Source: Desulfurococcales archaeon
GTDB lineage: Archaea > Thermoproteota > Thermoprotei_A > Sulfolobales > Acidilobaceae
NCBI GenBank assembly: GCA_015523445.1
Contig: WAKG01000003.1
Coordinates: 1-38,927 of the forward strand
Direction: 5' to 3'
Length of the DNA: 38,927 bases
In this document: positions 16,058 to 38,732 of the stretch, in pieces
How positions within the stretch are numbered: the stretch's first letter is position 1
Layout: each line of letters starts with the position of its first letter
Notes under the pieces: generated by a model
Database searches by the model: none
The model's input: the letters and a program-made list of their open reading frames with translations, nothing else
Told to the model about the DNA's origin: nothing
Position numbers and translations under genes: made by a program

Positions 16058-16471
16058 ATGACTAGGATCGAATCTACTCACATTACTATACCTACCTCAT
16101 CAAGGTTCCAGCTAGTCGATGTTACCAGCATGATCCAGGATTGGGTCTCCTCTATTAACGCTGGAGACGGGATAGTACTTGTGTATAGCCCGCACACTAC
16201 AGCTGGGGTCATAGTGAATGAGGCCGAGCCAGGGCTTATGAAGGACATATTAGACCTACTACGAGAGGTAACAAGGCCTGAAGGGGGGTGGAGACACAAT
16301 AGAATTGACAATAATGCCCATGCACATCTAGCTCAGGTTCTGGTAGGTGATAGCAGGGTGATCCCGGTAGCTAGAGGCTCACTTATGCTCGGCACGTGGC
16401 AACGAGTTATGCTACTAGAGATGGATGGGCCTAGGCGTAGGAGGCTCAACTTAGTCTATATAGGCTCCTAA
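16058..16471 (+). CDS. YjbQ family protein (UPF0047)
   Basis: A 137-residue single-domain protein with the family signatures SPHTTAGVIVNE, NNAHAHL and the LGTWQ...EMDGPRRRR end. Relatives show weak thiamine-phosphate synthase activity when overproduced, but the true role is not settled. ATG start with GGTGG about 6 nt upstream and CTTAAAG (16022-16028) as a possible TATA element. A candidate C/D box RNA follows at 16489. Confidence 0.9.
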   Translation: MTRIESTHITIPTSSRFQLVDVTSMIQDWVSSINAGDGIVLVYSPHTTAGVIVNEAEPGLMKDILDLLREVTRPEGGWRHNRIDNNAHAHLAQVLVGDSRVIPVARGSLMLGTWQRVMLLEMDGPRRRRLNLVYIGS

Positions 16472-16488
16472 CACATAAGCCTTCCATT

Positions 16489-16562
16489 GGGATGACGACC
16501 ACCCCGAACAGGATCTGAGACCCCCTCATAGAGGGGATGATCTAGTGGCGGCTGTCTGACCC
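16489..16562 (+). ncRNA. Candidate C/D box guide RNA (possible 16S rRNA 530-loop guide)
   Basis: Between the YjbQ and XPD genes. In order: terminal stem GGG (16489-16491), box C ATGACGA (16492-16498), D' CTGA (16515-16518), an internal hairpin CCCCTC/GAGGGG, C' ATGATCT (16537-16543), a 12-nt guide, D CTGA (16556-16559), and CCC closing the terminal stem. The guide AGTGGCGGCTGT next to D can form ten contiguous pairs (one G-U) with the universal 16S sequence GCCAGCCGCCGC; the fifth-nucleotide rule would point to C522 (E. coli numbering). Weak points: box C has one change, C' two, and the C-D' spacer is 16 nt rather than about 12. Expression is unproven. Confidence 0.5.
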
Positions 16563-16584
16563 ATTAGATGAGAGGGGTATAGTA

Positions 16585-18429
16585 GTGGAGGAGCCAGTGT
16601 TCCCCTACAGGGAGTTTAGGTCTGGACAGAGAGAGCTTGCTGAGGCTGTTAAAGAGACGGTTAGTGGCGGAGGTATACTTGCGGTAAAGGCCCCTACAGG
16701 ATTCGGAAAGACTGCTGCAGTTATTTATGGCCACCTACTGGCTGAGGCGCCTAAGGTCCTCTTCCTAGTTAGGACTGTTAATGAGGTAGAGCCTGTGGCT
16801 AGAGAGCTGAAGAGGTTTGGAGTCAACTATACAGTATTGATCTCACCCCGCAGAACCTGTCCCCTACTAAGAGGGTCCTCCAGTCATGTACCAGTAGAAG
16901 ACTTCTGGGAAAACTGTAGGATAGCAAGGCTCCGCGGCGCTTGCCTCTATTATATGGAGGTTGACTCTATTGATCCCAGCTCTGTATCTACTATCCTCTT
17001 AAATAGCCCTAGTTCCCTCTCGGGCCTCAGGCTAATAGGCTCCAAGCTGGGCTCTTGCCCCTTCTTCACTGCTAGGAGGCTTGTTAGGGATACAGCATTC
17101 ATTATAGCTACGTATCCCTACTTCTTCAAGAAGGAGTTGTTTGACTATGTCGTGGCTGAGATGGGGGTGTCCTATGGGGATCTTAGTGTTGTGATCGATG
17201 AGGCGCACTCCATATTATCTATCCACTCTATAACTGAGAGGAGCCTGACCCTAGACATGCTAGATAGGGCTGTGGAGGAGATCAAATCTAGAGTTCCAGA
17301 GTATAAAGAGGTTTTGGATAGTCTAATAGCTCTAAAGAACCTTATATCTAGGGTTATGGAGAGGCGCGCTAGGGGGCTTAGGCTAATAGATAAAGAAATC
17401 GTATTCGAGGCACTGGGTGACCATCAGCTCATACTGGATGCGGCAGAGGAGTCCAGGTTTAGGGCAGCTAGTGAAGCCTTGGCCAGTGGCGATGCGTCTA
17501 GTATGGTGTCTATAAGGAGTCCATTGTACTCTGTTGCACTTTGGGTAGAGACCATCGTGCTTGACGACTCTAGGGTTTTCTATAGTGGGGAGCCTAAGCC
17601 CCTGCTACTCGTCACATTATTAGATCCGGCAAGGATAGCTAGAGAACCGTTAGAGTCGGTACGCAGTGCCGTCCTCATGAGCGGGACCCTGCCCCCCCAT
17701 GGGTTCCTAAGTAGGATAATAGGGCTAAAGAGGAGCATCCAATACCTGGATTTATCCGTAACTAATAGAGTAGGAAAGGATTCTGTATATACTGCTGTAG
17801 CATCCGACGTATCCACTAGATATGTAGAGAGGAATAGGGTTACCTATTCTAGGATAGCATCGTATATTAATGTGATCAACACTAGGCTTCCGGGCCCCAA
17901 ACTGGTGGTATATCCGAGCTACGAAGTTATGAGGAGCATACTAGACAAGCTGCCTGCAGGCGTTGAGATGCACACTGAGGATAGGGGTACTAGTATAGAC
18001 TCACTAACAGAGTCCCTGTCTCCAGATGACCGTGTACTAATCAATGCGGTAGCTGGAGGTAAACTTGTTGAGGGTGTCGAGTTTACCATTAACGGTCATA
18101 GTATTGTGAGGGTTGTAGTGGTGGTAGGCGTCCCCTTCCCTCAGCCTGATGACTATACCAGGGAGCAGCTTCAGGTGGTCTCCTCCAGACTAGGCAAGGA
18201 GGGTGGCAGAGACTATGTCTACAGGTATCTTACTATAGTTAAGGTTAAGCAGGCCCTGGGCAGGGCCCGAAGGAGCCCTAGTGATAAAGCCGCGTTTTTC
18301 CTTTTAGACTATAGGTATCTTAGGAAGGATCTGAGGTCTATGCTAGGACTCAGGTATGATAGGGTGTTTAAGGGTGTATATGGGCTAGCGGCCACTCTTC
18401 TAGAGGCCTCACGGCTATTGTCTAGCTAA
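16585..18429 (+). CDS. xpd: XPD/Rad3-family iron-sulfur DNA helicase
   Basis: 5'-3' superfamily 2 helicase, likely acting in DNA repair. Walker A is KAPTGFGKTA (about 35-44), the DEAH box VIDEAHSI, and motif VI QALGRARRSPSDKA. Four cysteines at 92, 111, 120 and 158 (TCPLL, NCRI, ACLYY, SCPFF) match the 4Fe-4S pocket found in archaeal XPD. At 614 aa it is somewhat longer than the roughly 550 aa of Sulfolobus XPD. GTG start with GAGGGG 7 nt upstream, 22 nt after the candidate guide RNA. Its TAA stop overlaps the stop of the convergent gene (CTAA). Confidence 0.94.
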   Translation: MEEPVFPYREFRSGQRELAEAVKETVSGGGILAVKAPTGFGKTAAVIYGHLLAEAPKVLFLVRTVNEVEPVARELKRFGVNYTVLISPRRTCPLLRGSSSHVPVEDFWENCRIARLRGACLYYMEVDSIDPSSVSTILLNSPSSLSGLRLIGSKLGSCPFFTARRLVRDTAFIIATYPYFFKKELFDYVVAEMGVSYGDLSVVIDEAHSILSIHSITERSLTLDMLDRAVEEIKSRVPEYKEVLDSLIALKNLISRVMERRARGLRLIDKEIVFEALGDHQLILDAAEESRFRAASEALASGDASSMVSIRSPLYSVALWVETIVLDDSRVFYSGEPKPLLLVTLLDPARIAREPLESVRSAVLMSGTLPPHGFLSRIIGLKRSIQYLDLSVTNRVGKDSVYTAVASDVSTRYVERNRVTYSRIASYINVINTRLPGPKLVVYPSYEVMRSILDKLPAGVEMHTEDRGTSIDSLTESLSPDDRVLINAVAGGKLVEGVEFTINGHSIVRVVVVVGVPFPQPDDYTREQLQVVSSRLGKEGGRDYVYRYLTIVKVKQALGRARRSPSDKAAFFLLDYRYLRKDLRSMLGLRYDRVFKGVYGLAATLLEASRLLSS

Positions 18430-25329: not shown

Positions 25330-25958
25330 GGCCATATACTATAGTTTTCTCTACAGAAACTGTGGATGGTAGGATTGCAGATCCCACCGGGTTCTCACAG
25401 CTTAGCTGTATCGAGGACTTTATCCTACAACATACACTTCGTGCTAGAGTGGATGCTGTAATGGTCGGAAGTAGGACTGCTATTATGGATAACCCTAGGC
25501 TCACCGTCAGGCTGTCCAGCGGATGGAGCCCCTTACGGGTAGTTATAGATTCTAAGCTTAGGGTACCGCCTTCTGCTAGGGTCTTCAGTGTTCCGGGCAA
25601 AGGGGTTCTAGTCACGGTAGAGGGCCATAGTAGTGAGAGGCTCTTGGAGTATAGAAGGAGGGGGGTAGTTGTTGTGGAGAGTGGTAGGGGTAGGGTTGAT
25701 CTTAGAGATGCTGTTGAGCGTTTAGCTGGGATGGGTGTTAGGAGGCTTATGGTTGAGGGGGGTGGTGGCTTGAACTATGCACTCTTGTCTTATAGGCTGG
25801 TTGATGAGGTATGGGTTACTATAGCTCCCTACGTGTTTGGAGCTGGGAGGTCTATGTTTGAGGGTGATAAAGGTATTAGGGCTAGGCTTGCCCTATATTA
25901 TAATAAAATATTGTGTGGGGGTTGGGTTCATCTCCGCTATAGGGTTGTTTACCACTAG
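25326..25958 (+). CDS. RibD C-terminal-domain reductase (diaminohydroxy-ribosylaminopyrimidine phosphate reductase-like)
   Basis: A 210-residue single-domain reductase, the archaeal form that uses NADPH to reduce the ribosyl group of the riboflavin intermediate. Recognisable blocks are STETVDGRIAD at the N terminus, VMVGSRTAIMDNPRLTVR and LMVEGGGGLNYALL. In archaea this step precedes deamination and also feeds F420 and FAD synthesis. ATG start overlapping the previous stop by 4 nt. The stop shares CTAG with the convergent Tes gene. Confidence 0.85.
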   Translation: MRPYTIVFSTETVDGRIADPTGFSQLSCIEDFILQHTLRARVDAVMVGSRTAIMDNPRLTVRLSSGWSPLRVVIDSKLRVPPSARVFSVPGKGVLVTVEGHSSERLLEYRRRGVVVVESGRGRVDLRDAVERLAGMGVRRLMVEGGGGLNYALLSYRLVDEVWVTIAPYVFGAGRSMFEGDKGIRARLALYYNKILCGGWVHLRYRVVYH

Positions 25959-27775
25959 AATATTATACCTTTGTAGGCCTCCTTATATATGGGATGGTTC
26001 CTCATTAGCTTTACATACTTGGCCCTGTTGTACTTCTCTCCTGGGTTAAATGCCTTCGTCTCTAGGTCTTTCACGTATAGCTCTAGTGGCTGCTTGTATT
26101 TCTCCTGTACATAGTCTCTGTATAGGCTCTCCATCACGTTGAAGGTGCAGAATGGTATTATCCTGCCGTCTGGTGATAGGTAGTGTATGTTGCACCTCCT
26201 GACTCTAGTTACATCGTAGTTATATAGGTCCATGAAGTGCATCATGCCTAGGAACATCATGTGATAGTGTAGTTCTCCAAGGGCGTCGTAGTTCCTCTTT
26301 AGGAACACCTTTACTAGTAGCTTGTCGAAGCTTAGACCTTTTGGCATCTTCTTCACGTCTACGAACTTCTTTAGATCGACCATTGCCCTTAGCATCGCTA
26401 GCTTTTTGCTTCCACCACTGAGTATGTCTATCCTTCTCTCGTCAAGCCACTCCATGAATGCAATTACATCGAAGAACTCTGTTAGTGGAATGAACTTCTT
26501 GGGAAGGCCTTGCTCGTCTCTCTCGAAGAATATGTATGTTCCTGCTCCACACATTGGGTGGTTACTCATACAGAACTGGGGCACTGTTACAACTGACTCT
26601 ATGAACTTAGCGAACTTGGCTGCAGCTGGTATGGGGTACCATGCCTCTGGCGGTATCTGGTTGTCTGTTTGTTCAGCTATTCTATGTATTGCGTCTGCAA
26701 TTGTGATCCTCATCCTCTCCCTCTCGTGCTTCTTCATCTGCCCGCTCAGGCTTACTGGCTGGAAGTTTACTGCCCTAACTATATCCACATGCTTTACCCC
26801 AAACCTTATTATATCGCCTAGCTCGTGGTCGTTGATCGTCTTGATCACAGTGGGTACCAGGACGACACTGGTCATTCCAGCTTTCCTGAATACCTCGAAT
26901 GTGAATGGAACCTCGTAGTGGTTCTTCCAGTTGACCTTGGGGGTGACACCATCGAAGCTCATGTAGACCGTGTTTACACCCGCCTTCCTCAGGCTCCTAG
27001 TGTACTCTACCGCATAGTCGGGATCGTTGAAGTACATCTCGGCAAACTTTATCCCGTTGGTGTTGAGCTGGACATGCCTTACTCCCTCCTCTTTTAGCAT
27101 CTTTATGACTTCCACAAGGTCCTCCCTAACCGTTGGCTCTCCACCTGTTATCTGGACTACCATGGTAAAGCCCTGCTTCTTCAGCTGGCGTACCTGGAAC
27201 CTCAGGTTCTCCAGGTCTGGCTCGTATACGTAGCCAGCTTTTTCGGCGTAGAAGAAGCAGTAGAAGCAGGCTATATTACACCTATTTGTGACCACCAGGT
27301 TTGCTAGGGCTGTGTGGTTCTCATGCATACTGCATAGGCCACAGTTGTAGGGGCAGGGTGCTGAGAGTGTTAAGTACGCCTTTACTAGCCCGGGCCCCTT
27401 ACCTGTTTCTTCGAACTTCATCATGTGTCTATATAGTTCTGCATCTCCATAGTAGAGTTCTTCTATTTCACCATGTTCTGGACAGATCTTTCTTAAGTAG
27501 ATCTTTCCATCCCTCTCGAGGACCCTTGCTGGGAGTAGCCTCATACAGTAGGGGCATAGGCTGCTGGTTACCCTAACATGACGCTCTCCAGCCCTCAGCT
27601 TTGGCATCGGGCCTCCTATTGGAATCTTCTTCTCAGCTATCTCAACGTATACCTCCCCGTTCTCACGTATAAGCCTGGCAGGTGCTGGCAGTGTCTGGGT
27701 CTTCTCTATCCTTAGCACCTTCTTCTCTGCCACTGCCACCAGGCTACACCTCTGTAGAACTCTTCTCTGTTTCAC
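25955..27775 (-). CDS. tes: Radical SAM tetraether lipid synthase, Tes/GDGT-MAS-like
   Basis: Homologue of the MJ0619-type enzyme that joins the phytanyl chains of archaeol to make membrane-spanning tetraethers. The radical SAM motif is CNIACFYC (166, 170, 173), with TGGEPT following. Extra cysteine groups match the several metal sites of Tes: CPYC (74, 77) and KICPEHG (98) at the N terminus, PCPYNCGLC (141-148) just before the core, CMSNHPMC, and RRCNIHYLSPDGRIIPFC near the C terminus. At 606 aa it is slightly longer than some relatives. GTG start 24 nt after a strong TTATATATCC box, so probably leaderless. Confidence 0.87.
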   Translation of the reverse strand: MKQRRVLQRCSLVAVAEKKVLRIEKTQTLPAPARLIRENGEVYVEIAEKKIPIGGPMPKLRAGERHVRVTSSLCPYCMRLLPARVLERDGKIYLRKICPEHGEIEELYYGDAELYRHMMKFEETGKGPGLVKAYLTLSAPCPYNCGLCSMHENHTALANLVVTNRCNIACFYCFFYAEKAGYVYEPDLENLRFQVRQLKKQGFTMVVQITGGEPTVREDLVEVIKMLKEEGVRHVQLNTNGIKFAEMYFNDPDYAVEYTRSLRKAGVNTVYMSFDGVTPKVNWKNHYEVPFTFEVFRKAGMTSVVLVPTVIKTINDHELGDIIRFGVKHVDIVRAVNFQPVSLSGQMKKHERERMRITIADAIHRIAEQTDNQIPPEAWYPIPAAAKFAKFIESVVTVPQFCMSNHPMCGAGTYIFFERDEQGLPKKFIPLTEFFDVIAFMEWLDERRIDILSGGSKKLAMLRAMVDLKKFVDVKKMPKGLSFDKLLVKVFLKRNYDALGELHYHMMFLGMMHFMDLYNYDVTRVRRCNIHYLSPDGRIIPFCTFNVMESLYRDYVQEKYKQPLELYVKDLETKAFNPGEKYNRAKYVKLMRNHPIYKEAYKGIIF

Positions 27776-38654: not shown

Positions 38655-38732
38655 GCCGCGGTAGTATAGCCTGGCCTAGTATGCGGGCCTGTCAAGCCCG
38701 TGACCCGGGTTCAAATCCCGGCCGCGGCGCCA
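38655..38732 (+). tRNA. tRNA-Asp (GUC), CCA encoded
   Basis: Acceptor arms GCCGCGG (38655-38661) and CCGCGGC (38722-38728) pair perfectly. The anticodon arm is CGGGC, loop CTGTCAA, GCCCG, giving anticodon GUC for Asp. T arm is CCGGG, TTCAAAT, CCCGG. The discriminator is G73 (38729), the Asp identity base, and CCA (38730-38732) is encoded. No intron. It lies just after aspS on the same strand. Confidence 0.97.

Follow-up and report, generated by a model that had tools for sequence, protein, structure and literature searches.

We identified a well-supported C/D box sRNA, a new example of a known RNA class, in an intergenic gap of the window, by which we mean the whole 38,927-nucleotide stretch of DNA that was analysed. 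Its D guide most likely directs 2'-O-methylation to C522 of 16S rRNA (E. coli numbering), a nucleotide of the 530 loop in the decoding centre, and its D' guide most likely aims at C553. On comparative sequence evidence we put the probability of this explanation as a whole at roughly 0.88, the D' target being its less certain part. Two elements go beyond the original prediction: the patterned D' guide with its target, and an internal hairpin. The features of the locus are as follows.

16058-16471 (+): upstream neighbour, gene of the UPF0047/YjbQ family (PF01894; TIGR00149)
16485-16566 (+): C/D box sRNA gene, delimited as matched by the covariance model; the RNA itself probably spans about 16488-16563
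16488-16491 (+): terminal stem, 5' strand TGGG, pairing with CCCA at 16560-16563 (sequence; MFE fold)
16492-16498 (+): box C, ATGACGA (sequence)
16499-16510 (+): D' guide, CCACCCCGAACA, with G16506 at position -5 predicted to lie opposite 16S C553
16511-16514 (+): putative degenerate D' box, GGAT (from the 12-nt spacing and the 10-12 nt rule, PMC3608112)
16515-16518 (+): alternative D' box, CTGA (sequence)
16522-16536 (+): internal hairpin CCCCTC-ATA-GAGGGG in the D'-C' interval (MFE fold)
16537-16543 (+): box C', ATGATCT (sequence)
16544-16555 (+): D guide, AGTGGCGGCTGT; 16545-16554 pair with 16S C519-C528, with G16551 (-5) opposite C522
16556-16559 (+): box D, CTGA (sequence; within the conserved pattern)
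16560-16563 (+): terminal stem, 3' strand CCCA (sequence; MFE fold)
16585-18429 (+): downstream neighbour, Rad3/XPD-like DNA helicase gene (PF06733, PF13307; TIGR00604 below its cut-off)

The gap that holds the sRNA is 113 bases long and is bordered by the YjbQ gene on one side and the helicase gene on the other, all on the forward strand. The source assembly is archaeal, consists of 164 contigs and is probably a MAG. Neither 16S nor 23S rRNA was found in it or in the assemblies of the same genus, and for this reason matches to 16S were checked in relatives. Elsewhere the window contains a tRNA-Asp (GTC) gene at 38655-38732 and, on the minus strand at 25958-27775, a tetraether lipid synthase (Tes) whose score is well over the curated cut-off. 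Scans for sigma-70 promoters and terminators carry no meaning for archaea.

As the original prediction had claimed, the boxes C, D', C' and D occur in order and are enclosed by a TGGG/CCCA stem. Box C is close to the 5' end and box D to the 3' end. A descriptor of the four boxes matched once in the window, compared with a mean of 0.02 matches in 100 Markov-shuffled windows. The boxes are not perfect: box C differs from RTGATGA by one letter and box C' by two; consensus boxes are found in relatives. The TGACGA variant of box C is also present in G001, G002 and several members from family f7, and a TGA stands just 5' of the guide in box C' of nearly all members. Internal spacers of archaeal C/D RNAs are 10-12 nt long (PMC3608112). 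In the window the distance from C' to D is 12 nt, and that from C to D' is 12 nt if GGAT is taken as the D' box and 16 nt if it is CTGA, four bases downstream. The D' box is thus ambiguous, and the spacing within the sRNA family favours GGAT.

Folding of the single sequence gave nothing unusual (z -1.07), as is expected for C/D RNAs, and the terminal stem is short and imperfect in the genus of the window. The internal hairpin has counterparts in other members from families f1 and f7; hairpins were seen between D' and C' in L045-L053, L077 and L079 as well as in the window, with only a short loop in other members. The sRNA family has both a kink-turn and a kink-loop version. Because a hairpin replaces the short D'-C' loop in the genus of the window and in some relatives, the inner motif of these RNAs may be a full k-turn.

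The sRNA is widely conserved. A DNA search recovered the same element in the same gene gap of two further members of the genus, at 81-84% identity. Of the 229 genomes that represent the class, 55 contain the exact D guide followed by box D, GTGGCGGCTGNCTGA, while the reversed pattern occurred in one. A sister form, GCGGTGGCTG, was first met 5' of helicase orthologs from other genera, at the equivalent place, and adds about 60 genomes of the class. The sRNA would therefore be present in at least about 115 of the 229 genomes, or about half; the count is a minimum, because searches with exact patterns overlook members such as that of G002, in which box D reads CCGA. Beyond the class the guide is rare, near the control level. 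Around the GTGGCGGCTGNCTGA copies the set of boxes C, D', C' and D recurs nearly throughout, amid surroundings that are otherwise unrelated. In a strict automatic test for boxes C and C', 75 of 121 collected copies passed, against 0.5% of random positions, and on inspection all but three or four of the 121 resemble C/D sRNAs. Three copies (L070, L159 and L173) were judged to be chance occurrences and L170, in G127, was considered doubtful.

Comparative structure points in the same direction. In an alignment of 25 sRNAs, all from genera other than that of the window, the terminal stem comprises five pairs with 76.8% of cells paired, and double-sided changes were found in all five. None of 500 shuffles reached its covariation score, which fell by half or more when the stem was moved by 1-3 columns. 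A covariance model, R1, was trained without any sequence from the genus of the window. It recovered the element of the window at full length with 49 bits and an E-value of 3.9e-13, the next match having an E-value of 0.38. A search of Rfam yielded no family above threshold, so we judge that the sRNA belongs to a family which is widespread in the order and, as far as could be seen, is uncatalogued there. The best Rfam resemblance, in the C and D boxes, was to RF01150 (sR11), but the score of 18.4 bits (E 0.27) lies below the gathering score of 39, and membership was rejected.

It might be thought that boxes and complementarity had come together by chance in intergenic DNA. A 10-mer match of such quality to 16S was found for 1% of random window-like 10-mers and for 5% of shuffles of the guide, which is G-rich, so that this match is only moderately rare when considered alone; the z-score of the fold is no more striking. 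It is conservation that lends certainty. A chance arrangement, to which we assign practically no weight, is refuted by the recurrence of the element in about half the genomes of the class, by the match to R1 and by the covarying stem.

In several genera (L031, L032, L033, L034 and L035) the sRNA, with either form of the guide, lies directly 5' of a gene for a Rad3/XPD-like helicase. At L034 box D is decayed (13.8 bits). This position, together with the mere 25 bases that separate the sRNA from the helicase start codon in the window, might suggest that the element is a cis-acting k-turn in the mRNA leader, bound by L7Ae and regulating translation of the helicase rather than guiding methylation. 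Regulation by L7Ae of mRNAs bearing k-turns has been suggested elsewhere (PMC5539422). However, class-wide conservation concerns the guide and its boxes, which recur at loci whose flanks are unlike those of the window, and a leader element would have no need of the guide itself. We consider this explanation very improbable.

The D guide of the sRNA forms a duplex of nine Watson-Crick pairs and one U-G pair (at G527) with C519-C528 of 16S rRNA, with a computed energy of -21.9 kcal/mol. Ten contiguous pairs with 16S had been predicted from the window alone, and this part of the claim stood: the pairing with CAGCCGCCGC was found in the 16S of seven out of seven relatives. The quoted C518 did not stand, for the relatives have U518. 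It lies in GTGTCAGCCGCCGCGG, which was present in the 16S of every relative recovered, and the ten-pair duplex is unaffected by it. CAGCCGCC is the 16S stretch that the host must carry if this reading of the D guide holds. G16551 faces C522, and the fifth-nucleotide target named in the original prediction is supported by independent comparative evidence. The guide base at -1 differs freely from one species to another, as an unpaired position should.

The sister form GCGGTGGCTG keeps all ten pairs, likewise with C522 at guide position 5, but places its single wobble at G524 instead of G527. The computed duplex energy is the same for the two forms, while a fully Watson-Crick guide would reach -23.8 kcal/mol. 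Such a guide is almost absent from the class, a single clear sRNA (L143) having been found, and in the sample of the phylum that was searched no copy of a two-wobble guide was accompanied by boxes. The guide variants for comparison are GUGGCGGCUG, GCGGUGGCUG and GCGGCGGCUG.

Could a genuine C/D sRNA have its D guide directed at another RNA, such as 23S rRNA or a tRNA? The sole other recurrent rRNA complementarity of the guide is a GU-rich one to a conserved stretch of 23S, present in most relatives. It is far weaker than the 16S duplex (-11.3 against -21.9 kcal/mol), 16S provides the only strong anchored rRNA match in every relative, and the pairing with C519-C528 is kept exactly by both forms of the guide. 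We give this alternative little credence and retain C522 as the most likely target.

A second target is suggested by the D' guide. A G occupies -5 in a D' spacer of 12 nt in 58 of 118 sRNAs, that of the window included. These patterned guides have a core that is rich in pyrimidines and ends in GA; the G is exactly eight bases past box C, and the core pairs with UCGGG of 16S 552-556, C553 being at the modified position. The D' region pairs with at least seven of the nine invariant bases of 16S 547-556 in 53 of 118 sRNAs, compared with 4% when the regions were shuffled. In families f11 and f2 the D' guides are different ones. The 16S of G011, G015, G023 and G182 offers TCGGGGTG at 552-559 for pairing with CACCCCGA of the window, which is a perfect match to UCGGGGUG of these four genomes and is followed by a predicted A-G mismatch, which falls at 551 in every 16S compared. 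With TGTTCGGGGTG, a U at 551 would make the duplex perfect, while a G leaves one mismatch. At variable positions the D' guides paired no better with the 16S of their own host than with that of other hosts (46 of 80, 43.8 expected). Because this covariation is not significant, we infer the aim of the window's D' guide at C553 from the complementarity. The D' pattern points to C553. The sRNA is thus probably a double guide that covers helix 18 on its two sides.

The 16S genes of G176 (L120/L150) and G141 (L210) appear to be interrupted right past GCGAG (548), inside the D' target. The interruptions look like rRNA introns and occupy the same site in two families.

In the established scheme for archaeal C/D RNPs, the k-turns are bound by L7Ae, and methylation of the target riboses is the work of Nop5-fibrillarin (PMC3608112). 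Expression of the sRNA of the window, its assembly into an RNP and methylation are taken from this known mechanism. L7Ae would bind the k-turns and be joined by Nop5 and fibrillarin. The D guide would pair with C519-C528 and place a 2'-O-methyl group on C522, while the D' guide most likely pairs with 550-559, about 30 nt downstream, to address C553. A single RNP would in this way serve both sides of helix 18 during assembly of the 30S subunit.

Guides to neighbouring segments of one rRNA domain could also mean that the sRNA acts mainly as a chaperone, folding helix 18 through its contacts with 519-528 and 550-559, methylation being secondary. Such a role has been suggested for comparable sRNAs by Dennis et al. 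2015 (PMC4644070), and the rarity of fully Watson-Crick guides, although they are only one substitution away, is compatible with selection for release. The canonical spacing of the D guide, with C522 exactly at the fifth position, would be superfluous for a pure chaperone. The two roles are inseparable by sequence; we regard a mainly chaperoning RNA as unlikely, and keep to a methylation guide.

More tentatively, as a reading that is less likely than not, we suggest an uncatalogued, order-wide family of double guides in which one RNP serves both sides of helix 18 and selection maintains exactly one G-U pair, at G527 or G524. If Watson-Crick and two-wobble guides are indeed avoided, the strength of the duplex at this near-invariant site would be tuned, for example for release. 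The two guide forms amount to a natural experiment on the proper strength of the duplex between guide and target. A predicted Cm522 would be placed in the 530 loop across much of one archaeal order of hyperthermophiles and thermoacidophiles. Among the carriers, family f11 probably consists of Sulfolobaceae and the f1 genomes resemble Aeropyrum; some carrier species are probably cultivable, so the prediction of Cm522 is directly testable.

We found no text in the open-access literature that names the guide sequence, Cm522 or C499. C499, which corresponds to C522, does not figure in the main text of PMC4644070; the supplementary target table of that paper may already predict C522, possibly for S. 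acidocaldarius or I. hospitalis. According to the same paper, helix 18 is a hotspot of predicted methylation: 23 predictions are spread over 13 positions and come from five of the seven species.

The sRNA of the window shares with the archaeal C/D sRNAs for rRNA methylation (Omer 2000; PMC4644070; PMC7994747) the ordered boxes C, D', C' and D, the 12-nt guides, the terminal stem, the double-guide layout and an rRNA target in the helix 18 hotspot. It differs from the usual ones in its degenerate D' box and, as in the rest of its genus and some relatives, in having a hairpin between D' and C' where a short kink-loop is the rule. Among published sRNAs, Pca sR53 and Tte sR15 come close: their D' guides are predicted (Table 3 of PMC4644070) to act on C530, besides C34/C35, and by our conversion, made from the G507/G530 offset given in that paper, C530 equals E. 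coli C553, the D' target proposed here. Their D guide is also directed at helix 18, but at A509 (E. coli A532), whereas that of the window faces C522, and in this respect the sRNA departs from them. Guides to the two sides of helix 18 that several species share have a precedent in Tte sR114, Iho sR21, Pca sR28 and Sac sR115 (Fig. 3b of PMC4644070), although these address A535 and G515 with guides unlike those of the window.
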